DNA from: Hyphomicrobium album
GTDB taxonomy: Bacteria > Pseudomonadota > Alphaproteobacteria > Rhizobiales > Hyphomicrobiaceae
DNA: 64,000 bases
Assembly (NCBI RefSeq): GCF_009708035.1
Contig: NZ_WMBQ01000001.1
Span: forward strand, 2,175,501-2,239,500
Reading direction: 5' to 3'
Part shown: piece by piece, positions 16,355 through 53,296 of the stretch
Numbering within the stretch: position 1 is the first letter of the stretch
Layout of the letters: every line of letters begins with the position of its first letter
Position numbers and translations under genes: made by a program
Notes under the pieces: model-generated
Database searches by the model: none
Seen by the model: the letters and a program-made list of their open reading frames with translations, nothing else
What the model was told of the DNA's origin: nothing

Positions 16355-17587
16355 CTACTCCGCCGCCAGCCTGACGTAGGTGCCGTTTGAGACCGGGCAA
16401 GCCGCCCAGAGTTCTTCGAGCGCACGGATCAAGTTCGCCATCTGCTCGTCCGAGTGGACCGGCGACGGCGTGAGACGCATCCGCTCGGTGCCCTTCGATA
16501 CAGTCGGATAGTTTATTGGCTGTACGTAGATCCCGTATTGGTGGAGCAGCGCGTCCGTCACTGCCTTACAGTGAACCGGGCAGCCGACCATCACGGGGAC
16601 GATGTGGCTTGGATTGTCCATAACCGGCAACCGCTTCGCCTTGAGCAACGCCTTTAGCGTCCGAACCCGCTCCTGGTGGCGGACGCGCTCGAAGGCATTC
16701 GTTTTCAGATGGCGGACGGAAGCAAGCGCCCCGGCCACGATCGCAGGCGCGAGCGATGTCGTGAAGATGAACGCCGAGGCGAACGAGCGGATCGCATCGC
16801 AGAGGTCGCGGGAACCGGCGATGTAGCCGCCCATGACCCCGAACCCCTTGGCGAGCGTGCCGTTGATGATGTCGACCCGGTCCATGACGCCGTCGCGCTC
16901 GGCGATGCCGCCACCGCGCGGACCGTACATGCCGACGGCGTGCACCTCATCGAGGTAGGTCAGGGCACCGTACTTCTCCGCGAGATCGCAGATAGCGGCG
17001 GTGGGGGCGATGTGCCCATCCATGGAGTAGACGCTCTCGAAGGCGATGATCTTGGGCGTGCCCTGCGGAAACTTCTTAAGTTTCTCCTCGAGGTCGGCAA
17101 CGTCGTTGTGACGAAAAATGTGCTTCTCGCACTGCCCGTGGCGGATGCCCTCGATCATCGAGGCGTGGTTCTTCTCGTCCGAGAAGACAACCGTACCAGG
17201 AACGAGTTTGAGGAGGGTCGAGAGCGTCGCGTCGTTGGCAATGTAGGCTGAGGTGAAAAGAAGCGCAGCTTCCTTGCCATGGAGGTCGGCAAGCTCGCTT
17301 TCGAGCTCCACGTGATAGTGGGTCGTGCCGGAGATATTGCGCGTGCCGCCGGAGCCGGCTCCCACGGCGTCTATAGCCTGGTGCATGGCCGTTAAAACCG
17401 CTGGGTGCTGGCCCATGCCGAGATAATCGTTGGAGCACCACACCGTAACCTCGTGCGAGCCATTGGCCGCAAAATGATCTGCCACGGGAAAGGACCCGCG
17501 GCGGCGCTTCAAATCCGCGAAAACGCGGTATCGCCCTTCTTGATGAAGGGCCTCGAGCCGCTGCTGGAACAAGCCTGCAAAGTTCAT
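16355..17587 (-). CDS. hemA: 5-aminolevulinate synthase
   Basis: Condenses glycine and succinyl-CoA to 5-aminolevulinate, the first step of heme synthesis in alphaproteobacteria; PLP-dependent and cytosolic. The protein has 410 residues from ATG 17587 ([11 protein letters not shown]), preceded by GGAGA; the 15 codons upstream of it are not family-like. Motifs: [12 protein letters not shown] near the N-terminus, [15 protein letters not shown] for cofactor binding, and the Schiff-base lysine in [14 protein letters not shown]. It is the last gene of a leftward run that begins with a pentaheme cytochrome and includes a CcmI-like protein. The likely role is to boost heme supply for that locus. Whether it is the only hemA in the genome cannot be told from here. 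Confidence 0.96.
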
Positions 17588-17628
17588 TTCGGTCTCCTGC
17601 ACGTCTTCCAGGCAAGAACGCAGAGCAG

Positions 17629-18576
17629 TCATTCGGCCTTCAGGCCGAGCTCAATCGCCGCGGCCGTAATCTGGCTCGATGCTGCAGAGTCGTCCTTGAA
17701 GACATCGAGCGCCTTGCGGAAGGCTGTGGTCGCGACCTCTCTTTCGCCCAGCACGACTCGAGAGCGCATGAGGCGAGTCCAGCCCTCGACGTCGCGCGGA
17801 GAGCTCTCTAGACGATGAGCCAGGCCATCCACCATCGATCGGATTTGAGCCTCCCGGTCGTGCGGAGGCATCGCTTCGGCCTCGGCAATTTTCTCGACGC
17901 CAGGTCCGTCACCACCCTTGCCGACGGCCCCGGTCTGCAAAGACGAGGCTGTCTCTGAATTGGCGCTATTGGAGGCCTTCGCCTTGGCCTCCTCGTATGA
18001 GCGCTTGAGCTCGGTGGAACTCGGATCAAGCTCCATCGCTCTCGCAAAGGCGGTAGCCGCCTGTTCATAGCGCGCCGTGTGGAAGTAGGACCGCCCGAGC
18101 ATCTCCCAGCCTTCGATGTCCTCCGGCGTGGTCTCGAGCCGAGCCGCCAGCCGTTCGATCAGCGTGTTCACGTCAGGTAGCGATTTGCCATCTGCCGGCG
18201 CAGACGCTGCATCTTCGGATCCAATCGAACGCGTGTAGTCCGTGAGGCTCGCCAGCATTTCGCCATCCGCCCCGAAACCCGATTCCGAATATGAGGTTGT
18301 GTCCGCTGGACCGGCCGCCTCGGGAGGATCCGCCACATAGGAAACAGCAATGCCAATGCCAGCAACGAGGAGGAAGACTGCGGCAGGCGCAATCAACGTC
18401 CGAGGGGCACGTCGAAGGCCTAGGCCGAGACCCCAGCGCGACGACCGCAGTTGCGAGAGGAGAGCAAGTCTCGCCGCGTCCGCTTCTGCTTTGTTGAGTT
18501 TCCCCGCTTTAAGTCGAGCTTCGATATCCTCGAGCCGGGCTTTGCAGGTCTCTACGTCGAGCCGCTTCCTTTGCAT
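17629..18576 (-). CDS. CcmI-like TPR protein lacking the first membrane segment
   Basis: A 315-residue protein related to CcmI, the factor that presents apocytochrome c to the heme ligation complex. The N-terminal soluble part ([21 protein letters not shown]) matches the cytoplasmic loop that in CcmI lies between membrane helices 1 and 2. One membrane helix follows (about residues 61-82). The periplasmic part has TPR repeats ([20 protein letters not shown], then [19 protein letters not shown]) and the family signature [21 protein letters not shown]. The normal first membrane helix is absent, and the preceding gene ends 9 bases upstream, so the frame cannot be extended. It sits between cytochrome-locus genes and hemA, which supports a role in maturing this locus's multiheme proteins. 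Confidence 0.8.
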
Positions 18577-18960: not shown

Positions 18961-20625
18961 TCAGAACTTCCTGCGGACCTCGGCGCGGACGCCGAAGTTG
19001 TCTTCGTCGCCGCCCTCGAGGATCTGATAGGTGGCATCGGCGCGGAACAGCCAGGCCCGATCGATCGGGATCTGATAGCGGACACCGAAGCCGTACTGCG
19101 GGTCCTCGGCACCGATGCCGTCGTTTTCGAAGGGCTGCACCATGGCCACCTCAAAGACGAGCTGCTCATCGAGATTGAAGAGATATTGCAAGCCGAGCGC
19201 GCCACCCAAGGCGTTGGAGCCGGTGTCGTCGAGTTTTGGGTAGCCGGTCAGGGCGTCGGTCTCGAAGTTGATGCCGACGTTTTTCAGTATGCCGGCGCCA
19301 TTGCCGTCGACCAGGGGCTGAGGGTTGCCGAAGCCGACGAAGAAATTGGCGTAAGGGAGCAGCGTGCTCGGCAAGCCCGAGATCAGGCTGTTTTCCGAAA
19401 TGATGGCAATGCCGTTGCTGTCTCCTACGGGGTCATCTCCGAAGTTCGCGAACAAGCGGGTCGAGTTCGACAAGGTGTTGAGATAGCGCCGGCTGTAAGA
19501 GGCCGTCAGAAAGTGCGTCAGAAGGCCGTCCTGTTCGTCGCGGCCCTGTATCAGGCCGTAGCCCGCTTCGATATAGCCGTCGAAGGCGTCGATGAAGGCG
19601 GTGACGCCATAGAGGTTGGCCAGGTGGTTGTCGTCGTCGCCCGCTCCGATGATGCCCGCGTTGTCGACGTTGTCGAACGCGGCGAAGAAGGTGACGTCGA
19701 AGTTGGCAAGCCCTAGCGCCGCCGAGTTCTTCGCCGGCAGGCTCACCGCGCCGCCGAGGATCGCGTCGTTCGCCCAGATCCCGTTCTGCAGGAACAGCGG
19801 GAAGAGACCGACAGTGAAGGGCAGGTCGAAACTGGCCTCCTGACCGGAGAAGCCGGAATAGAGGGAGCCGACGTCACCCTCGAAGAACAGCGTCTGCGGC
19901 TCGAAGTCGAACTCGTCGTTGAAGTCCTCATTGCCGTCGCCGCCGCCGAACTCGAAGCGGGTGAACTTATTGTTGTTCTCCTGAAGCGGCGTGAAGAACG
20001 CGTGGATTCTTTCAGTGCCGGAGATCTTGAGGTCGACGTCGATGTTCAACCGGGTCGCGATCTGGGCAATATCCTTGCCGTTGTTGTTGTTGTAGGCGAC
20101 CGCCGTCCGCCAGTCGCCATAGATGGCGAGGCCCGGAAGCAGCAAATTCTTCTCACCGAGGAAGGTGCTGCTCTCGTCGTAAATGCCGGACGTGTACTGC
20201 GGGCGGCCTAACTCAACCAGCGGACGCGGCGGCTCGACCGCGCTCTTCGCGCCGTAGATGTCGACCTGCTCCTCGACACTGTATTTCTTTTCGTACTGCG
20301 GGTCGGGTTGAAAAAGGTCCTTCTTGCCGCTTGTGTCCTTGCGTTTTGCGGCCGCCGGCTCTGCAGCTTTATTGTCAATCTTCTTTTCAGTAGGCGCGCT
20401 CACCTTCTTCTTAGAGGGCGCGTCCACCTTCTTCGCATTGGCTTCGATTGCCGCGGTCGTCACGCGGGCGTCGCCGGTCCGCACTTCGGTCGACCAGCCC
20501 TCATCGGTCTTGGTGCTGCTCTCGCCTGCGGCAAGAGCTGCAATTGTGCCGCACACGACGAGGCAGCCACTGGCTGCCAGCGCGACAATGGCGGACGTTG
20601 TCGTAGAACACGCATTACACGACAT
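18961..20625 (-). CDS. Putative outer-membrane beta-barrel (porin-like) protein of redox locus
   Basis: A 554-residue exported protein. It has an N-terminal signal sequence (about 1-33), then a Lys/Ala-rich low-complexity spacer (about 50-100). A long region follows with alternating hydrophobic and polar residues, Gly/Asn/Asp-rich turns and many aromatics, as expected for transmembrane strands (for example GLAIYGDWRTAVAYNNNNG, and LFRADATYQILEG near the end). The last residue is Phe (VRRKF), the usual end of outer-membrane barrels. I cannot name a family. It starts 42 bases after the pentaheme cytochrome gene, so a conduit or porin partner of that cytochrome is plausible. It is smaller than I expect for MtrB or PioB and shows no obvious N-terminal CXXC of MtrB type. 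Confidence 0.7.
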   Translation of the reverse strand: MSCNACSTTTSAIVALAASGCLVVCGTIAALAAGESSTKTDEGWSTEVRTGDARVTTAAIEANAKKVDAPSKKKVSAPTEKKIDNKAAEPAAAKRKDTSGKKDLFQPDPQYEKKYSVEEQVDIYGAKSAVEPPRPLVELGRPQYTSGIYDESSTFLGEKNLLLPGLAIYGDWRTAVAYNNNNGKDIAQIATRLNIDVDLKISGTERIHAFFTPLQENNNKFTRFEFGGGDGNEDFNDEFDFEPQTLFFEGDVGSLYSGFSGQEASFDLPFTVGLFPLFLQNGIWANDAILGGAVSLPAKNSAALGLANFDVTFFAAFDNVDNAGIIGAGDDDNHLANLYGVTAFIDAFDGYIEAGYGLIQGRDEQDGLLTHFLTASYSRRYLNTLSNSTRLFANFGDDPVGDSNGIAIISENSLISGLPSTLLPYANFFVGFGNPQPLVDGNGAGILKNVGINFETDALTGYPKLDDTGSNALGGALGLQYLFNLDEQLVFEVAMVQPFENDGIGAEDPQYGFGVRYQIPIDRAWLFRADATYQILEGGDEDNFGVRAEVRRKF

Positions 20626-20667: not shown

Positions 20668-22599
20668 CTAGTCTTTCACTTCGATATCCACCGCGAAGGA
20701 GTGGAAGTTCATGATCCGCTCATTCATGCTTTGCTCCATTTCCTTGGTGGAACGGACGAAGCGCATGAAATAGATCGGCTCCGCGCGGCTCCGCATACGG
20801 AAGGCGAGTTGGTACTTGCCCGGCTTCGTGATCAGGCCACCTGGCACTTGGTACTCGGCGCGCTTCTCGCCCAGCGGCGGGAATGATCGGTTCTCCATGC
20901 GCACCAGCGGCGGATGGTTGAGCACGGTGGTCGGGACGCCGGGCGGCCGCAGATGCGGCAGCGGGTCGATGTCGAAGTTCACCGGCAGGTACATCTCGCG
21001 GTCCGTGCCCTTGACGTTGGTCGTCAGGAATTTGGTTTGGAAGTGCACCAGCTGCTGGTCCGTCGCGATGCGACCGGCGGCGACATCCAAGCTGTGCAGA
21101 TCGGCGATGTCGCCGTTGCTGTCGACATACCCCGACTCCCAGACGTTCTTGCCGTCGGGGTCGACGAGGGCAACGTTCACCCAGAGCTGCGGCTGCGCAC
21201 CCAGCGAACCGGACGGCAGGTTGTGCCCCGTATTGGTGTTCTTGATTTTGTAGGAGAACGCCAAATCCCTGCCGACGCTCGGGGTGCCCTCGATGTAGGG
21301 ACCGTCGACGTGGCTGCTGTTCTCCATGACCTGCTTTCTGAGCTTGTCGCGCTCGTCGAGCTTCTTGAGGTTCTCGTCGAGGATCTGCCGGGCATCTTCG
21401 CGGTCGAGCGCATCGGCCCAACGCTTAGGAAAGGCGACCTTGATCTTGCCGTCGGCGACCTTGTCCTCGAACCTGGTCGTGCCCCAACCGGCGCGCCAGT
21501 CGAACTCCAGCCAATCCTTGATGCTGTAGGCCTGGGCCTTCGTGTTGTGAGGGAAGACACCCGGATGGGCGATCGAATAGCCCGGGCCGATGAAGCGGTG
21601 GTTGGCGTGCTTGCGTCCCGGGTTGACCTCCTTGCCGCCGACGACCGCGGAAGGCGCGGTTGAATAGCCGTCGGGCTTTCCCGCAACCTTGCCCATGTGG
21701 CAGTCCTGGCAGCTGACGCCGGCTTTGCGGGCCGGGCTGTCGCGATACTGATCCCAGACGATCTCCAGCTTGATGCCGAGGTTGACGGCGACCTGGTGGC
21801 AGCTGACGCAGAACTCTGATTTTGTGATCTGGTCGTTGGTGATCATGCCCTTGTGAATGTCGTTGCCGCGCCCGTCGGTGCTGGTCTTGACGGAATAGGT
21901 CTCCTTGTTGGCGAGGACGTCTTTGATCACGCTCTGCTGGCCGCTGCCGTAGACCGGCTCGTAGATCTTGCCCGGCTCGACCCGGCGCTCGCCGTTGACC
22001 TTGCTGTACTGCTCCTTGACCCGGTGGCAGGTGATGCAGCTCACGCCCTCGCGCGAGATCTGGCTGCGTGCCCAGAGCGGCGTTTCGCGTGCCTCACCAA
22101 GCTGGGTGCCGACCTGCTGGTGGCAACGCACGCAGAAGGTGCCGACCGTCCCTTGGGTCAAATCCTGGAACTTCTGTTCGAACTTGTGGAACATCGGCGA
22201 GATCGACGCGTAGGCATGCTGCGACGACGACCACTCCTCGTAGATCTGCTTGTGGCACTCGCCGCATTGCGCAGCGGTGGGATAGAGGCTCTCGTCGTTG
22301 AGGGCGTCGTGGCCATCGGGCTTGGCGCTCGCGGTGCCGCTCTTGTCAGCCGGTTTTTCAGCCTTGGCCCTTTTCCCTTCGTCGTCCTTGATGAGTGCTT
22401 CCAGCGCGGCGTCCGCAGCGGTTGTTGCGGACGCTCCTTTACTCTCCGCGAGCCTCAACCCCGGTCGTGTTTGTATGTTTGGGATTCCCGAAGCCTCCCG
22501 GGACGCGGCGACCGCATCCCAGCTGAGGAGTGCTGCGTTTATCAGCAGGGCGCTCGCTAGAGCGCACGAAAGCGTCAAGAGACCGGGCCATTGCTTCAT
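20668..22599 (-). CDS. Pentaheme c-type cytochrome, cytochrome c554-like
   Basis: Exported multiheme cytochrome of 643 residues. A signal peptide is at about 1-33, then an Ala/Lys-rich spacer. Five CXXCH heme sites begin at C112, C156, C188, C264 and C297. Extra histidines nearby (SSSQHAYASISPMFH, GRKHANHRF) could be distal ligands. The C-terminal half has no heme sites and looks beta-rich (FSYKIKNTNTGHNLPSGS), a domain of unknown role. I chose ATG 22599, preceded by GGGGGG, over the ORF start 48 bases upstream. There is no CXXCK site, so it is not NrfA. It leads the leftward operon with the barrel, CcmI-like and hemA genes. Redox partner and substrate are unknown. Confidence 0.88.
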   Translation of the reverse strand: MKQWPGLLTLSCALASALLINAALLSWDAVAASREASGIPNIQTRPGLRLAESKGASATTAADAALEALIKDDEGKRAKAEKPADKSGTASAKPDGHDALNDESLYPTAAQCGECHKQIYEEWSSSQHAYASISPMFHKFEQKFQDLTQGTVGTFCVRCHQQVGTQLGEARETPLWARSQISREGVSCITCHRVKEQYSKVNGERRVEPGKIYEPVYGSGQQSVIKDVLANKETYSVKTSTDGRGNDIHKGMITNDQITKSEFCVSCHQVAVNLGIKLEIVWDQYRDSPARKAGVSCQDCHMGKVAGKPDGYSTAPSAVVGGKEVNPGRKHANHRFIGPGYSIAHPGVFPHNTKAQAYSIKDWLEFDWRAGWGTTRFEDKVADGKIKVAFPKRWADALDREDARQILDENLKKLDERDKLRKQVMENSSHVDGPYIEGTPSVGRDLAFSYKIKNTNTGHNLPSGSLGAQPQLWVNVALVDPDGKNVWESGYVDSNGDIADLHSLDVAAGRIATDQQLVHFQTKFLTTNVKGTDREMYLPVNFDIDPLPHLRPPGVPTTVLNHPPLVRMENRSFPPLGEKRAEYQVPGGLITKPGKYQLAFRMRSRAEPIYFMRFVRSTKEMEQSMNERIMNFHSFAVDIEVKD

Positions 22600-22887
22600 C
22601 GCCTTACCCCCCAATTTATATTCAGAGGCGACATCCCGATTTTGCATCGCTTACGCGAAACGGCGCCCGCACCGCCCGGGATTTCAATTATTGATACGCG
22701 GAAAATGGGCCGTGATATGGCCGCCAGGAAAATGGAAAATCTGAAATCGAGCGGATAAACCGTAGGTTGCCGAACAACTGAACGAATGACGATTTTGGAA
22801 GCGCCGCATTTCTGCCCGATAGAAGGAAGTTACTCATCGTTGCGGGATCAGTGGGACGTCCATAAAGCGGGACGAGGGAACTGAGCC
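22600..22887. other. Divergent promoter region of the multiheme locus
   Basis: 288 bases between the leftward pentaheme gene and the first rightward gene. It is locally AT-richer than its surroundings around 22680-22750. It contains the perfect 11-base palindrome TCAATTATTGA (22684-22694), 85 bases before the pentaheme start, which could be an operator. It does not fit the FNR/Anr consensus TTGAT-N4-ATCAA. A minus-strand frame at 22688-22912 has no protein character. Confidence 0.45.
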
Positions 22888-23022: not shown

Positions 23023-23366
23023 AGCAAACTGTTTTCTGTTCGGCGCACCGGCATTCGCCCGGCGCGTGAGCACGAGCGGTTCGCGGCCGAGTCTTTGACT
23101 CGGCCGGAGAGCTTGCGCGTCTCTATGGCGTAAAAGGCCGACGGAAAAAAATGGCCGATCTGCAATTAAGGGGCGAACTCTCGACGCAGAGTTCCGGCCT
23201 TTCGCTTTCGCTTGGCCTCAATCATTTATTGGGTCCATTGCCTCCAACAAAATCATAAACAGCACGGCGCATTCGGCGGCCCGTTCTTCCGCCGTTTGCC
23301 TTGCTCTTTTCGCCTGATTGTCATGGCAAGACCACACTGTTTTGGCTTTTTCGTTCGAAAGCAGCC
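23023..23366. other. Intergenic gap before the 2Fe-2S/flavin reductase gene
   Basis: 344 bases with no supported gene. It contains the 10-bp hairpin at 23084-23106 (listed separately) and a moderately AT-rich zone at 23220-23340 that could hold the reductase promoter. Frames opening at 23212 and 23301 lack protein features; the latter is only the upstream extension of the reductase frame. Confidence 0.4.
23084..23106. terminator. 10-bp stem, 3-nt loop hairpin
   Basis: CGGCCGAGTC and GACTCGGCCG are perfect complements around TTT. The hairpin lies 62 bases after the tiny membrane-protein gene and well before the reductase gene. It is GC-rich enough to stop or pause transcription, but there is no T-tract, so it could also be a regulatory palindrome. 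Confidence 0.4.
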
Positions 23367-24461
23367 ATGGATTGGAAAATGCCAAGCAGCCAAGTCACCA
23401 TAAATGGAAGCAGCTTTCAGGCGCGCCGCGGCGAGTTATTGCTGGACGCTGCTCTGAGCAACGGCGTCGCTATGCCCCACGACTGCCGGGCGGGCCACTG
23501 CGGCACCTGTTGCGTGCGGCTGGTATCCGGCGAAGTTCGGGGCGGCGAAGGCTCCGAGCCGGGCATCGTTCATGCCTGTCAGTGCCGGATCGTCGGCGAT
23601 GCGGTGATCGAGATGGGCCAGCCCTCGGGTGTTCGCACCGTCGAAGGCGTGCTGAGCTCATTGCGACCCCTCTCGCACGAGGTGATTGAAGTCGGCATCA
23701 AGACTGATCGCGCGCTGCCCTATCACGCGGGCCAATATGTGCAGGTAGGCTTCAGCGGCTATCCAAGCCGTCCCTTCAGTATCACGCATCCCTTACACGG
23801 CGACCCGAACAGCTGCTCGGTCTGCTTCCATGTCCGGCGCATGAACGATGGACGTGTCACCTCAGCGCTCGGTAAGCGCATCGCCCCCGGCCATCGGGTG
23901 AAGGTGACCGGGCCCTATGGGTCGGCGCATTTCCGACCCAATCAGGAGTGCCGGCTGATCCTCGTCGCCACCAATACTGGCTTCGCGCCGATCTGGTCGA
24001 TCGCCGTTGCTGCGCTGCGCGAGAATCCCAAACGCAGGATGATGATCATCGCCGGCGGTCGCACCATCGAGTCTCTCTATATGGGTCCGGCTCTCACCCG
24101 GCTCGCCCGCTTCCCCAATGTCCTCGTCCTGCCTGTCTGCAGCACACCGCAGACTGTCACCTCGGCGGTGAAGCCCGGCCGGCCGACCGACTATCTGCCG
24201 CGTCTGTTGCAGACCGACGTTCTCCACGCGTGCGGCGCGCCGAGTATGGTCGATGCGATCAAATCGATCGCGGCGCTAAACGGAGCGGCCTGCCATGCGG
24301 ATCCGTTCCTCCCGACCACCGACGACAAGGGCGGGGAAAGCGTCCTGACCCGCGCAAAGGGGTGGCTCTCAGTGCCATCCAGACGCCAGGCTGGCCAACT
24401 CGCTCTCGATCGAGAACCGCCGATACTGTCCTATGGGATAGCTCAAGCACGGGGTGAGTAG
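23367..24461 (+). CDS. 2Fe-2S ferredoxin / FAD / NAD(P)H reductase, three-domain
   Basis: Single-chain electron-transfer reductase of 364 residues. It has a plant-type 2Fe-2S domain (C40, C45 and C48 in CRAGHCGTC, fourth ligand C71 or C73 in HACQC), an FAD domain (RPFSIT at 135-140) and an NAD(P)-binding domain (VATNTGFAP at 200-208). The order matches the reductase components of bacterial oxygenases and CDP-deoxyhexose reductases. No oxygenase gene is nearby; multiheme cytochrome genes follow. I therefore infer that it feeds electrons from NAD(P)H into the cytochrome locus, or the reverse. The start is uncertain: ATG 23367 gives a clean 2Fe-2S domain, and ATG 23379 is also possible. Confidence 0.87.
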   Translation: MDWKMPSSQVTINGSSFQARRGELLLDAALSNGVAMPHDCRAGHCGTCCVRLVSGEVRGGEGSEPGIVHACQCRIVGDAVIEMGQPSGVRTVEGVLSSLRPLSHEVIEVGIKTDRALPYHAGQYVQVGFSGYPSRPFSITHPLHGDPNSCSVCFHVRRMNDGRVTSALGKRIAPGHRVKVTGPYGSAHFRPNQECRLILVATNTGFAPIWSIAVAALRENPKRRMMIIAGGRTIESLYMGPALTRLARFPNVLVLPVCSTPQTVTSAVKPGRPTDYLPRLLQTDVLHACGAPSMVDAIKSIAALNGAACHADPFLPTTDDKGGESVLTRAKGWLSVPSRRQAGQLALDREPPILSYGIAQARGE

Positions 24462-24550: not shown

Positions 24551-25519
24551 TTGTTGGCGATCTTCGGCTTTGCGGGCGGCGCAGTTGCGGCCGATCCAGC
24601 CAAGACCGTCGGTCCAAATGCCTGTGGCGAATGTCACAAGCAGGAGGTTGAGGCATGGAAGGGCACGCATCATTTCAAGACCTTCCGTGAGATGCCGCGC
24701 AACACCAAGGCTAACGAGATCGCGGACAAAATGGGGGTGCGGCGCATCAGGTCGGACAGCCTGTGCCGGAACTGTCATTTCACGGTGCAGCAGAAGAACG
24801 ACACGGAGGAGCCAGTGGCGGGCATCTCCTGCGAATCCTGCCACGGCGCCGGGAAAGATTGGATCAAGATCCACAGCGGGTTCAGCGGCAAGACAGTTTT
24901 TTTCGAGAGCAGTGCCGAGGAGAAGGCGCGCTGGAAGCTCTCCGATGCCAAAGGAATGATCAGGCCGCGCTCGGTCTACCTGCTGGCGAAGAACTGCTAC
25001 AGCTGCCACGTCGTGCCGCAAGAAGACCTCGTGAACAAAGGCGGCCATCGGGCGGGCAGCGCCTTCGATCTTGTGTCCTGGTCGCAGGGCGAGGTGCGGC
25101 ACAACACAGCTTACTCCAAGGGCAAAGAGAACGTTCCGGCCAGCGCAGCGCGCAGGCGGATGCTCTATCTCGTCGGCCTCGGCGTCGAGCTCGAGACCGC
25201 ATTGCGGGCGGTCGGAAAGGCGACCGTGAGAAAGGCCTACGCATTCGAGATGGCCAAGCGCGTCGACCTGGCGCGCAAGCAGCTCGCGGTCGCGGCGAAA
25301 GCGGCGCCAAACGTGCCGGAGATCGCAAAGATGATCGAGCTTGCCCATTCGGCAGGGCTGAAGCTCAACAACGAACGCTCACTAACGGCTGCTGCCGACG
25401 GCGTCTCCAAGCAGCTCGAGAGCATCACCGAAACGTATGACGGCAACACGATGGCCGGGCTCGATAGCCTCATTCCCGGACCGGACAAATACAAAGGCAC
25501 GGCGAGGAAACCAGATTGA
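24551..25519 (+). CDS. Tetraheme c-type cytochrome, cytochrome c554 family
   Basis: Multiheme cytochrome with four CXXCH motifs (C25, C72, C94, C149 counted from TTG 24551) in the pattern of cytochrome c554-type proteins. A helical, Lys/Ala-rich C-terminus of about 150 residues lacks hemes. A signal peptide end is visible (LLAIFGFAGGAVAADP), but the frame has no ATG or GTG between its stop at 24455 and this point. The TTG gives only 14 residues before the likely cleavage site and no positive n-region. A neighbouring frame from GTG 24454 supplies a basic n-region and hydrophobic stretch (RVRAGGRPPLLLTLSLR), so a one-base frameshift near 24530-24550, real or from sequencing, is likely. The true 5' end is therefore about 24454. 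Confidence 0.82.
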   Translation: MLAIFGFAGGAVAADPAKTVGPNACGECHKQEVEAWKGTHHFKTFREMPRNTKANEIADKMGVRRIRSDSLCRNCHFTVQQKNDTEEPVAGISCESCHGAGKDWIKIHSGFSGKTVFFESSAEEKARWKLSDAKGMIRPRSVYLLAKNCYSCHVVPQEDLVNKGGHRAGSAFDLVSWSQGEVRHNTAYSKGKENVPASAARRRMLYLVGLGVELETALRAVGKATVRKAYAFEMAKRVDLARKQLAVAAKAAPNVPEIAKMIELAHSAGLKLNNERSLTAAADGVSKQLESITETYDGNTMAGLDSLIPGPDKYKGTARKPD

Positions 25520-25578: not shown

Positions 25579-26514
25579 ATGCCTGACTTCGGGGGAGCTG
25601 CCGTGAGACCGGCGGGGCCGCGCGCACTTGGCGGCTCGATCGGCGGGCGCAGTCGGGGCCCGGCGGGATATCTCATCCGCCAGACAGCCCAGAGCCTTCT
25701 AATTGCGGCCATTTCCGCCGGCCTGTTCTGGCTTGTCTGTATCTATGGCAACGGGCTCCGCGACCCGCGCTATCTCGATGGCTGGGTGCTGGCCGGCGGC
25801 ATGAGCGTGCAGCTCTATTTCCACATCGCCATCAAAGCGGCCCGCCTGTCGCCGAAGTCCGCCATGCGCTGGCGGAAGGTTCACATCTTTCTCGGCTATC
25901 TGCTGATCGCCGCCTTCATCTCGCATTCGGATTTCTCTCTGCCGGACACCGGCTTCGAATGGGCGCTGTGGGCGGGCTTCGTTCTGGTGACGCTGAGCGG
26001 CATTTTCGGCGCGTATCTTGCCTGGTCGCTTAGAGCCAAGGGCCGGATCGACGAGAGTATCAGCTATGATCGCATCGCTACGCTTCGGGCGGAGCTTGCC
26101 CGGGATGTCCATGCCGCCGTCGCCGAGACCGATCCGGCGGCCGCTCAGATCGCCTTGCCGTTGCCGGGTCTGCCCCACGACGCCTGGATCATGGACCTCT
26201 ACGCCAACCACCTGCGGGACTTTTTCGAGGGACCGCGCAACTTCACCGCTCATCTCATCGGCTCGCAGCGCCCGCTCAGGCGGTTGACCGACGAGATCGA
26301 CGACCTCTCACGTTATGTCGACCAGCAGAGCCGGGAGAAGCTTGCCGCAATCAAGACCCTGGCGGTCGAAAAAGACCGGCTCGACTTCGCGCGTGTCTAT
26401 CTCGGGCTGACCAGGGGTTGGCTGTTCGTGCATGTGCCCGTCACCTACGGGCTGACCGTGCTGACGGTGCTGCACGTCCTCGTCGTCTATGCCTTTTCAT
26501 CAGGGGCTTGGTGA
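25579..26514 (+). CDS. Membrane protein with two His-X13-His helices (predicted di-heme b)
   Basis: A 311-residue membrane protein with about five membrane segments (residues 38-56, 68-86, 101-117, 127-150, 282-306) and a soluble helical part between (about 155-275). Two helices each carry histidines 14 residues apart: H102/H116 and H285/H299. This spacing places one histidine near each membrane face and is how bc1-type cytochrome b and ferric-reductase-type proteins hold two stacked b hemes. I infer a transmembrane electron carrier. The family itself is not one I can name. Start ATG 25579 has no clear ribosome site; GTG 25603 follows GGGGGAG and may be the real start. The stop overlaps the decaheme start (TGATG). 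Confidence 0.78.
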   Translation: MPDFGGAAVRPAGPRALGGSIGGRSRGPAGYLIRQTAQSLLIAAISAGLFWLVCIYGNGLRDPRYLDGWVLAGGMSVQLYFHIAIKAARLSPKSAMRWRKVHIFLGYLLIAAFISHSDFSLPDTGFEWALWAGFVLVTLSGIFGAYLAWSLRAKGRIDESISYDRIATLRAELARDVHAAVAETDPAAAQIALPLPGLPHDAWIMDLYANHLRDFFEGPRNFTAHLIGSQRPLRRLTDEIDDLSRYVDQQSREKLAAIKTLAVEKDRLDFARVYLGLTRGWLFVHVPVTYGLTVLTVLHVLVVYAFSSGAW

Positions 26515-29006
26515 TGTGGCGGCCGCGACGGATCACATCGGATATGCCGCCGAAGACCGAGAGACCCGGCTCCCGGCGCGACCTTCTGGCCGTGCTTCTG
26601 GCCCTTGTGACCGTCGTCTGCCTGGGCTCGGCCTTCATTCTCTCGAAGGGCACGCAATTCCTGATGCCGGGGCCGCTGGCGAGCGCTCATGGCGCCATCG
26701 AAAAGTGCAGCGCCTGCCACACCAAGAGCGGCAAAGGCAAATTGAGCTGGCTTCACGGCCTCGTCGCCGGCGATCCGCTCGCCGACAGCAAGGCCTGCCT
26801 CACATGCCACAAGATGCCCGACACGGCCTTCAACGCGCACAGCGCTTCGGCCGAGGCGCTGAAGCAGAGCACGGCGCGGTTGACGAAAATCGCTGCGGGA
26901 TCGCCTGTGCCGCAATCGGCCCGCGCGCAGAGCACCGCCTTCCCCACTCACGACGTGGTCGCGCGCGGTCTCTACTGCGCGACCTGCCACCAGGAGCACC
27001 AGGGCGTCAGTTTCAATCTGAACAAGATCTCCAACGAGCAATGCCGCTCGTGCCACGTGGTGAAATTCGACAGCTTCGACGGCAATCACCCGAAATTCGA
27101 GAACTATCCGTTCAAGCGGCGCACGCGGATCATCTACGACCATGCGGGCCATTTCGGCAAACACTACCCGGAAGTGGCGAAGAAAGATCCCGCGAGGCGC
27201 ATTCCCGAGACCTGCTCGAGCTGTCACGACAGCCGTGAGGACAAGCGCGTCATGGCCGTGGCGCCGTTCGAGAAGACTTGCACCGGTTGCCATCTCGACC
27301 AGATCATCGGCAAGGAGCGGGCCAGCGGCCCGAAAGGCATTGCCTTCCTGAGCCTGCCTGGCCTCGACCTGCAGACGCTGAAGAAGAAGAACGCCCCGAT
27401 CGGCGAATGGCCGGACGCATCGGATGCCGCGCTCACACCGTTCATGCAGGTGATGATCGGCCGGGATGAGCGGGGGCGTGCTCTGATCAAGACCGTTGAC
27501 ACCCTGAAGCTTCAGGATCTGAGCGGTGCAAGCGACGACCAGATAAAGGCGGTGACCACCCTGGTCTGGGAGATCAAGGGGCTGTTCTATGCGCTGATTA
27601 AGGGAAAAGCGTCGGACGTGCTGGGCAACTTCAATATTGGCGGCGGGGCGAAGCTGAGTGCCAATCTCGTTGCCGATCTGACCGCGAGCATCCCGCGCGA
27701 TGTGGTCACGAGTGCGCAACAGCAGTGGCTACCCAATCTCGCGACGGAAATGGCCAACCCTCGCGACATGAGTGGTCAAAAGCAAAGCGGTTGGACCACA
27801 ATGACCACTGGATCGACATCGGCCATGTCGGCGCCTCCCGAGGAGCCGTCAGGTCGGGATGCACGTCAGGAAACCCCGGCGGCTAGCCCCCAAGAGTCGG
27901 CTAGCGAAACAGCCAGCGTACCCAAACGCGATCCGCCACCTTGCCTGGTGGGCATTCTCGGTCAGTGTCTGATGTTTAAGGGTGCGGCGGAGGCAGTCCA
28001 GCCTGAAGGAGCGGCCGGAAAATCCAGCACAGGGAACGCCAACCAAGACGGCAGGAAGGAAACGCCGTCCGCCGGCGATCTGCCGGGAGCGATGCGGGCA
28101 GGTGTCAAGGCCGCCGGGCAAGCAGCGGGGCCTGAAGCAGTGGCCGGAAAAGCCGATACCCCGAACGAAAAGCCACATGACGGCAAGAAAGAGCTCGCCG
28201 CCAACGACCAGCCTCAAGCCAAGGGAGCGGACCAAAAAGACGATCTACTCTTCCCCACGGAAGAAGAGCTTCGCGCGATGAAAGCAGGCAGCAAGGACAC
28301 CGGGACAGGAGCCCAGCCTGCAGGCGCCGCCTCCAAGGCAGACCCCAATGCGCCAGCTCCGGCGGACTCAGGTACCCAGCCGACTGAGCCTCGAACAAGC
28401 GCGACGCCCGTGATCAGCATAGAAAGCGATGTGGATCCGGAGAGCTGGGCTGAGTATGGCGGCTGGTATCGGCAGGACTACGCGATTTTCTACCGCCCGA
28501 CCGGACACAAGGACAAACTCATCTACTCTTGGCTCTTTCTGACCGGCCCCCGAGCGCCGAAAGGTGATCCGAATCCCGCGGGGGGGGTCTTCGATTTTCT
28601 CACGAGCAAGGACGCTCAGGGCTCATGCACGAAATGTCATAGCGTTGACGAAATCCGCAGAGGCAGGGTCGTCAATTTCTCGCCACCGTCGGTCGAGAGC
28701 AAGCGGGGACGCTTCACGAATTTCATCCACGAGCCCCACTTCGGCGTCATCGAAAATCGCACTGGCGGGCTGGAGAATCGCGGCTGTCTGAGCTGCCATA
28801 ACCTTGAAAGAGGCCGCCCCTATCTAAAGAGCTTCGAGCAGGGCAATCCGCAAAGCTTTGTATCCAATTTCGGCGAGGTGAAGAAAGATCTCTGCCAGAC
28901 CTGTCACACCAGCAGCATGGCGCGCCAAGACTGTTTGCTGTGCCACAAGTATCATGTGAATGGCGCGATCACGCCAATCATGAACACGAGACTCCCGGCT
29001 CAGTAA
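26514..29006 (+). CDS. Membrane-anchored decaheme c-type cytochrome, hemes split 6+4
   Basis: An 830-residue multiheme cytochrome. A basic, proline-containing N-terminus (about 1-24) and one uncleaved-looking membrane helix (about 25-45) anchor it facing the periplasm. Six CXXCH sites begin at residues 65, 95, 155, 177, 234 and 256. After a heme-free stretch comes a Pro/Ala/Gly/Lys-rich disordered linker (about 440-640) with internal repeats. Four more sites follow at 705, 758, 794 and 807. ATG 26514 is chosen because it overlaps the stop of the di-heme b candidate (TGATG); the longer frame is a shadow. It may take electrons from the membrane protein. It is larger than MtrA or PioA and differently arranged. 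Confidence 0.88.
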   Translation: MWRPRRITSDMPPKTERPGSRRDLLAVLLALVTVVCLGSAFILSKGTQFLMPGPLASAHGAIEKCSACHTKSGKGKLSWLHGLVAGDPLADSKACLTCHKMPDTAFNAHSASAEALKQSTARLTKIAAGSPVPQSARAQSTAFPTHDVVARGLYCATCHQEHQGVSFNLNKISNEQCRSCHVVKFDSFDGNHPKFENYPFKRRTRIIYDHAGHFGKHYPEVAKKDPARRIPETCSSCHDSREDKRVMAVAPFEKTCTGCHLDQIIGKERASGPKGIAFLSLPGLDLQTLKKKNAPIGEWPDASDAALTPFMQVMIGRDERGRALIKTVDTLKLQDLSGASDDQIKAVTTLVWEIKGLFYALIKGKASDVLGNFNIGGGAKLSANLVADLTASIPRDVVTSAQQQWLPNLATEMANPRDMSGQKQSGWTTMTTGSTSAMSAPPEEPSGRDARQETPAASPQESASETASVPKRDPPPCLVGILGQCLMFKGAAEAVQPEGAAGKSSTGNANQDGRKETPSAGDLPGAMRAGVKAAGQAAGPEAVAGKADTPNEKPHDGKKELAANDQPQAKGADQKDDLLFPTEEELRAMKAGSKDTGTGAQPAGAASKADPNAPAPADSGTQPTEPRTSATPVISIESDVDPESWAEYGGWYRQDYAIFYRPTGHKDKLIYSWLFLTGPRAPKGDPNPAGGVFDFLTSKDAQGSCTKCHSVDEIRRGRVVNFSPPSVESKRGRFTNFIHEPHFGVIENRTGGLENRGCLSCHNLERGRPYLKSFEQGNPQSFVSNFGEVKKDLCQTCHTSSMARQDCLLCHKYHVNGAITPIMNTRLPAQ
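28001..28208 (+). repeat. Imperfect ~79-base duplication coding the decaheme linker
   Basis: The segment from 28001 (GCCTGAAGGAGCGGCCGGAA) is repeated from 28130 (GCCTGAAGCAGTGGCCGGAA) with substitutions and small length changes. Both encode a Pro/Gly/Lys-rich motif of the form PEGAAGK...DGRKE / PEAVAGK...DGKKE. A third, weaker copy follows near 28300. The pattern suggests the linker grew by tandem duplication, so its length may vary between strains. Confidence 0.6.
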
Positions 29007-52215: not shown

Positions 52216-52816
52216 ACAAGGCACTCCGGTGGGCAGGATCGTTGTCCCGCAGGCTAAGCGCGACGTCGGGGCTGCTTATCAGGCTCGCTCGCGCCCACGC
52301 GGCGCGGCTTACCTGCACAAGGCTTCTCTGTTCGATTTCTTGCATGTCGCGCTTAGGCGACTGGCAATCGTTGGCGTCATGCCGCGGGGACGAGAGCGCC
52401 CCCGGATTGCCCACTCTGCCCCTAGTAAAAGGGAGAGCGGGTTAAGCATCCGCAAAGATGAGGAATGAACCTGAGGGGTCGCGCTGCGGGGCAGCGGTAC
52501 ATCCCAACCGCAAGTTGCGCCGACCGATAGGAACGCGCGGTAAAATGATCGGACTATTCTGTCGTTACACGGAGCATTCCATCACGATGTACTGCCGGTC
52601 TAGGTCTCGGTCCGCAATCGCTCCTAGCGGAATTGGCGTCGCTCTGAATCGAGCTTGGCGCGTCCGAAGTTGGCTTCGCGTTGACGGCCGGCCTTAAGGC
52701 AAAGTGGAGATACTCGGTTGAGCCTGAATGCCAGGTTTATCGAGATTTTCACGGCTCTCAGCCACAGTCGTGCAGGGTCAGCACGTCAGCTGACATCTGA
52801 CCGTGGAGGACCGACC
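52216..52816. other. Divergent intergenic region, mtdB / glycine-rich gene
   Basis: About 600 bases. It should contain the leftward mtdB promoter and the rightward promoter of the exported glycine-rich gene. Small frames (52229-52468, 52458-52697) show no protein features or ribosome sites that I trust. The segment 52540-52610 is the most AT-rich part. No repeats or palindromes stand out. Confidence 0.45.
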
Positions 52817-53296
52817 ATGAGGAAATTGCAGCCGGCACTGGCCGCTAGCATGAGTGTGCTGGTCGGCCTTTCGGCGTTGATGTCAATTGCGGAAGCTCGC
52901 GGTGGCGGCGGCTTCGGCGGTGGTGGCTTCGGCGGCGGAGGCGGACCCGGCGGCGGTCACGGGGGAGGCTTCGGACCCGGCGGCGGTGGCTATGGACCCG
53001 TTCCCGGCGGTGGACCTGGCGGACCTGGCGGACCTGGCGGTGGTGGCTACGGTCCCCCCGGCGGAGGCTATGGCCCTGGCGGTGGTGGATATGGTCCTGT
53101 CCCCGGTCGCACGAACCCGTACGCCCGCAATGCCGTTCCCTTCATCAACATGGACTACAACGACCTCCTGCAGACTCCGCCGAACAACTCCGGCTCGTCG
53201 TTGCCGAACGACTGCGACTACCTAATGAAGAGAGCCGTCGACTCCGGCAGCCCCGATATGTGGAAGCTCTTCAACGACTGCGCTCACAATCGTTGA
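52817..53296 (+). CDS. Exported glycine-rich protein of unknown function
   Basis: A 159-residue protein. It has a signal peptide (MRKLQPALAASMSVLVGLSA, likely cleavage after AEA near 27). A run of about 70 residues of Gly with Phe, Tyr, Pro and Val in GGGGF, GGPGGPGG and GGGYGPVPG units follows. The C-terminus is a more ordered segment (NAVPFINMDYNDLLQTPPNN, two cysteines in NDCDYLM and FNDCAHN that could form a disulfide). The start is fixed by GGAGG 9 bases upstream. A structural or surface role is possible, but I cannot name a family. Confidence 0.75.
   Translation: MRKLQPALAASMSVLVGLSALMSIAEARGGGGFGGGGFGGGGGPGGGHGGGFGPGGGGYGPVPGGGPGGPGGPGGGGYGPPGGGYGPGGGGYGPVPGRTNPYARNAVPFINMDYNDLLQTPPNNSGSSLPNDCDYLMKRAVDSGSPDMWKLFNDCAHNR

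Follow-up and report, generated by a model that had tools for sequence, protein, structure and literature searches.

A 6+4 decaheme cytochrome with a probable inner-membrane anchor, a folded heme-free domain and a disordered linker in a PCC4 cluster of Hyphomicrobium album

Water filters and soils commonly harbour Hyphomicrobium. According to He et al. (2017, PMC5566968), PCC4 is a putative porin-cytochrome cluster of this genus, first found there in a genome recovered from a pyrite-oxidizing enrichment, and it comprises a porin, cytochromes with 4, 5 and 10 hemes, an inner-membrane protein (IMP) with two WX3HX13H motifs and an SGXXG motif, and a redox protein; a role in extracellular electron transfer is given there as hypothetical. 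Our literature search found no experiment on PCC4, and one 2026 metagenome paper merely mentions it. The likeness to MtrA, PioA and MtoA consists of ten c-type hemes, a porin neighbour and a supposed function in electron transfer across the envelope. In MtrAB-type systems a single wire of all ten hemes runs inside a barrel, and MtrB, the sheath of this wire, has 26 strands (PMC7198977). For porin-cytochrome systems beyond MtrAB, the passage of electrons through the periplasm is the wider question behind this analysis.

The DNA analysed (the window) is a 64,000-nucleotide stretch of the H. album genome. It contains a decaheme cytochrome gene (26514..29006, + strand, 830 aa), whose ATG start overlaps the stop codon of an upstream IMP gene (25579..26514, +). 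The IMP has WX3HX13H motifs at residues 98 and 281 and SGIFG at residue 140, and likely binds two b hemes. Further upstream are a c554-like tetraheme cytochrome gene with four CXXCH motifs (24551..25519, +) and a gene for a 2Fe-2S/FAD/NAD(P) reductase of the FNR type (23301..24461, +). Two genes are divergent to the decaheme gene: a pentaheme cytochrome with five CXXCH motifs and a long N-terminal tail (20668..22647, −), in which about 80 residues, estimated by eye, separate the signal sequence from the first heme, and an outer-membrane porin (18961..20625, −) with a Lys/Ala-rich N-terminal tail (KKDLFQPDPQY). AlphaFold2 (AF2) and Foldseek gave a barrel of approximately 18 strands for the porin, resembling Occ, AlgE and MOMP channels. 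The porin, the 4-, 5- and 10-heme cytochromes, the IMP motifs and a redox protein encoded upstream of the tetraheme cytochrome are the same as in PCC4 subgroup I of Hyphomicrobium, and the IMP gene directly follows the tetraheme gene, with no pfam13247 Fe-S gene ahead of it as is characteristic of subgroup I. By gene content, the cluster is PCC4 subgroup I and the window decaheme its ten-heme component. Beside the porin gene, at 16355-18576, lie genes for 5-aminolevulinate synthase and for a TPR protein of the CcmH/CycH type; the same pair adjoins PCC4 in several relatives (L023, L042 and L046) and may serve heme supply and cytochrome maturation.

Compared with the MtrAB type, the window protein is larger and anchored, has its ten CXXCH motifs in 6+4 order, and is accompanied by a porin with fewer strands than MtrB (about 18 against 26), which makes a sheathed decaheme of the MtrAB kind unlikely. 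By score the protein also lies outside the MtrA/DmsE/PioA decaheme family (TIGR03508): it reached 25.9 bits against a curated cutoff of 192.2, and a genome search gave 19-21 bits. In the accessible text of PMC5566968 the word "linker" does not occur, and neither a 6+4 arrangement nor a domain lacking hemes nor the motif is described; these features are added here.

The heme spacings of the window decaheme are 30, 60, 22, 57, 22, then 449, then 53, 36 and 13. The original prediction had placed the sixth CXXCH at residue 256 and the seventh at residue 705, and both positions were confirmed in one uninterrupted frame, with 449 residues between C256 and C705. A frameshift fusing two genes, which had been raised as an alternative, was ruled out by the intact frame. 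The only recovered homolog split between overlapping frames was L043, a metagenome-assembled genome, in which the break lies within the heme-free domain. A check for separate hexaheme and tetraheme homologs had also been proposed, and we found none in 398 phylum-wide genomes: 13 were matched by both profiles, with the N- and C-terminal modules in one frame, and the exceptions were an N-terminal half truncated by the contig end (G503) and a distant ten-heme protein (G688). The predicted length of the gap was upheld, but the gap is not mainly linker. It consists of a heme-free domain D (residues 262-418), then the linker (419-637), and finally residues 638-704, with which the C-terminal module begins; about half of it is therefore folded and conserved or belongs to the tetraheme module.

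The same module order was found in 31 species-genome loci and in more homologs from whole-genome searches. Heme spacing was nearly constant, with 30/60/22/57/22 and 47/36/13 in most homologs, while the gap ranged from 245 to 520 residues. Among the 27 closer sequences, mean pairwise identity was 0.71 for the hexaheme module, 0.72 for domain D, 0.78 for the stretch before heme 7 and 0.72 for the tetraheme module, but 0.29 for the linker, and sizeable gapping was limited to the linker (40% of columns). A chance origin of the 6+4 arrangement was ruled out, since the pattern was seen again in every full-length homolog; one distant homolog has an 11th CXXCH. PDB sequence and fold searches with the decaheme gave no useful match.

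A hydrophobic segment at residues ~24-45 (26583..26648, +) follows positively charged residues, and AF2 modelled it as a helix (residues 20-43, pLDDT ~80); it is a probable inner-membrane anchor that appears to remain uncleaved. The hexaheme module (residues 46-261; 26649..27296, +) has CXXCH motifs at 65, 95, 155, 177, 234 and 256, and its non-CXXCH histidines 59, 109, 162, 192, 210 and 213 were kept in 66-68 of 68 homologs (H217 in 62 of 68); the invariant H59 lies 14 residues past the end of the anchor segment. The tetraheme module (residues 638-828; 28425..28997, +) has CXXCH motifs at 705, 758, 794 and 807. It opens with a conserved heme-free stretch (WAEYGGWYRQDYAIFYRPTGHKDK) bearing H665, 40 residues ahead of heme 7, and H739, H742 and H814 are conserved as well. 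Thus ten non-CXXCH histidines, six in the hexaheme and four in the tetraheme module, were conserved in 66-68 of 68 sequences, which by count gives one distal histidine for each of the ten CXXCH motifs. This fits ten bis-His hemes, and would therefore point to electron transfer rather than catalysis. AF2 placed the heme modules poorly (pLDDT ~40-60), as expected because heme was absent from the modelling, so hemes 6 and 7 could still be near each other.

Domain D (27297..27767, +) was modelled with a pLDDT of mostly ~75-95 (residues 275-418). Its mean identity is like that of the heme modules, and it is ungapped. It was found in all linker-bearing relatives and is diverged in a no-linker clade described below; searches of Pfam, NCBIfam and PDB gave no match above cutoff. 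Homologs with a folded, conserved domain filling the gap had been named in the original prediction as what would refute it, and domain D is such a domain for part of the gap.

The remaining linker (27768..28424, +) is rich in Pro, Ala, Gly and Lys, with 12% ILVFWYM compared with 31% in the flanking domain, and its AF2 pLDDT was ~30 except at a short helix. A linker of roughly 200 residues with this composition had been predicted and is upheld (~220 residues, disordered), but the duplicated 79-base unit attributed to it was not found as such by repeat tools. Instead, a register search showed a diverged in-frame repeat of 43 codons, 27978-28099 vs. 28107-28228 (122 nt at 129-nt spacing, 77/122 identical), with a score of 32 against a maximum of 16 among 100 codon shuffles, and a second, weaker partial match at 186 nt. 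Linker length varied among relatives, as had been proposed for comparison: 131-281 aa within Hyphomicrobiaceae and mostly 43-139 in other families, with extremes of 22 (L048) and 293 (L008) by profile edges and about 0 in the no-linker clade. Linker dN/dS was 0.2-0.5, below 1, and on these codon comparisons the linker is diverging fast yet under constraint.

Within the linker, the short acidic dileucine motif QKDDLLFPTEEELR (residues 574-587; 28233..28274, +) coincides with the AF2 helix, and the form Q-[ST]-D-[DE]-L-L-x-P-[TS] was retained in the linkers of most Hyphomicrobiaceae. A broad form, D-x(0-2)-[ILV]-L, occurred in 38 of 48 linkers (1000 shuffles: mean 8.9, maximum 17) with 64 copies in total (shuffle mean 11.1, maximum 23); since the expression was picked after inspecting the sequences and the homologs share descent, these figures indicate retention, not independent origins. 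Ten of the 48 linkers were without the strict form. The motif also varies in form (DKGGLLD, GDDEIDL, DDDEIATGK). Tandem copies were found in distant decahemes, namely DQSDIL five times (L058), DDIL repeats (L010/L018) and DKGGLLD five times (L081), and the L055 linker has GDDEIDL repeats, acidic relatives outside the strict-form count. Pentaheme tails can also be repetitive, with DDELL/KDLL repeats in L107, and porin tails of Hyphomicrobiaceae often contain [DE]DLFRPDPQY, which is a resemblance to the motif only. In the L102 cluster, the pentaheme cytochrome (347-2587) has a tail with QSDDLLLQPTS in tandem, so that the motif of the Hyphomicrobium decaheme linkers recurs there, and the decaheme of this cluster has DQSDIL five times. 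A DNA pattern search for the strict motif in the H. album genome returned the linker copy only. Elsewhere in the window (52718-53296), a Gly/Pro-rich repeat protein ends with DYNDLLQTPP, which is like the linker motif and may be due to chance.

Our preferred reading, which we hold to be reasonably probable, is that the decaheme relays electrons while anchored in the inner membrane, and that its linker is flexible and may serve docking. Electrons would pass between the b hemes of the IMP and the membrane-proximal hexaheme module, and the tetraheme module would pass them to the periplasmic tetraheme and pentaheme cytochromes and then, where present, to the outer-membrane porin. The tetraheme module of Hyphomicrobiaceae and several other lineages would be a tethered head made mobile by the linker, and the acidic dileucine motif could be a docking peptide that keeps this head, or the linker itself, close to a partner. 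Electrons could flow to or from the cell exterior, and the outside substrate may be Fe(II), Mn(II) or another compound. No RuBisCO was found in the H. album genome, which weakens the reading of an autotrophic Fe(II) oxidizer. Cytochrome c_y is a membrane-anchored mobile cytochrome with a flexible linker and one heme in its head; the anchor, the disordered linker and the mobile c-type head are alike, but here six hemes would lie near the anchor and four on the head.

A bolder extension of this reading is that QxDDLLxPT, together with tandem DQSDIL and DKGGLLD, its occurrence in one pentaheme tail and the similar porin tails, represents a docking peptide common to several periplasmic components, whose weak and multivalent contacts would assemble the PCC4 conduit. 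We regard this as doubtful; if true, disordered regions, rather than a rigid heme wire, would organise electron transfer between the membranes.

Two modules moving relative to each other and spanning the periplasm had been proposed originally. The two heme modules, the anchor and the disordered, variable linker stand, but spanning as a requirement of the system does not. In other Alphaproteobacteria (L059-L071) the linker is absent and the gaps are 198-248 residues; the gap segment abuts the tetraheme module directly, and its alignment with the end of domain D is weak (probability 22%, 53 columns) but collinear. In most of the L059-L071 clusters that were read, the porin and pentaheme partners scored 530-970 bits on Hyphomicrobiaceae profiles, and pentaheme tails were shorter in this clade (23-34 vs. 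36-147). With partners of the same kinds present in this clade, the system does not depend on mobility. A tether is thus plausible for the window decaheme but cannot be the general PCC4 mechanism, because very similar porins and pentahemes occur with no-linker decahemes. The clade stands outside our homolog tree owing to a domain-length filter, and the tree, in which 17 of 44 inner branches stay open and several branches are long, gives rough grouping only.

The alternative that survives best concerns the end use and is compatible with a flexible relay for the decaheme itself. The cluster might not be an extracellular conduit; instead, it would be a redox module of the inner membrane, linked to NAD(P)H or quinone, that acts on a substrate in the periplasm, and the porin would be a channel for solutes. 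The FNR-type reductase in the cluster, a cNMP/4Fe-4S protein in a distant one, the likeness of the ~18-strand porin to Occ, AlgE and MOMP compared with the 26-strand MtrB (PMC7198977), and clusters without a porin match all agree with it. However, porin and decaheme presence or absence agreed in 36 of 36 genomes, and the pyrite-oxidizing enrichment in which Hyphomicrobium PCC4 was first found, according to PMC5566968, also speaks for a conduit, so we consider this alternative somewhat unlikely.

Another possibility, which we judge unlikely, is that domain D and both heme modules form one continuous rigid wire and the linker is a functionless loop that changes by slippage and duplication. Homologs with no linker or a 22-residue linker exist, the repeat grew in frame, and linker lengths vary freely: within Hyphomicrobiaceae they were not significantly correlated with the lengths of the pentaheme tail (rho −0.11, p 0.60) or the porin tail (rho 0.34). 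On the other hand, the motif was kept in linkers that are otherwise unalignable and was re-amplified in several lineages, and dN/dS stayed below 1 (0.2-0.5). The least probable reading, a tether that puts the hexaheme module at the inner and the tetraheme module at the outer membrane, has in its favour the anchor helix and a disordered ~220-residue linker whose mean reach we estimate at ~13 nm (0.55 nm × N^0.59, of the order of the periplasm width), but it is improbable given the similar partners of no-linker decahemes, linkers of 22-140 residues elsewhere, and a tetraheme cytochrome and pentaheme that could bridge the gap instead. With linkers from 0 to ~290 residues and from no to many motif copies, the decaheme family offers natural variants that make the tether role directly testable.

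The cluster was kept in most of the 31 loci and partly in 18 distant loci, and the IMP gene directly preceded the decaheme gene in 18 of 18 distant clusters inspected. PCC4 is present in the cultured strains H. facile DSM 1565 and H. zavarzinii ATCC 27496. The decaheme gene was absent from all seven same-genus genomes tested, so the distribution is patchy. Distant clusters have an extra stretch of ~1.7 kb before the IMP, with PF13247 in L100, where the cNMP/4Fe-4S protein lies between the reductase and the IMP. The L100 and L113 clusters (reductase, tetraheme, IMP and decaheme) had no porin match and no clear pentaheme match in the stretch examined; the porin may be optional or replaced there, and the outer-membrane step would then be not obligate or use other proteins. 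A distant ten-heme relative (L084 / L111:9783-11654, −) has an FHA-like N-terminus, an anchor, the 6+4 order with a 92-residue gap, and an IMP-like neighbour. The decahemes of L100, L102-L106, L108, L110, L112, L113 and L115 have a conserved Cys-rich segment (YERPxxxWxCGxxxxGKPCxxGP...CxPxRSLR) ahead of the anchor, for which Pfam and NCBIfam searches gave nothing above cutoff. The window decaheme is without this segment, which in the distant proteins is probably cytosolic.
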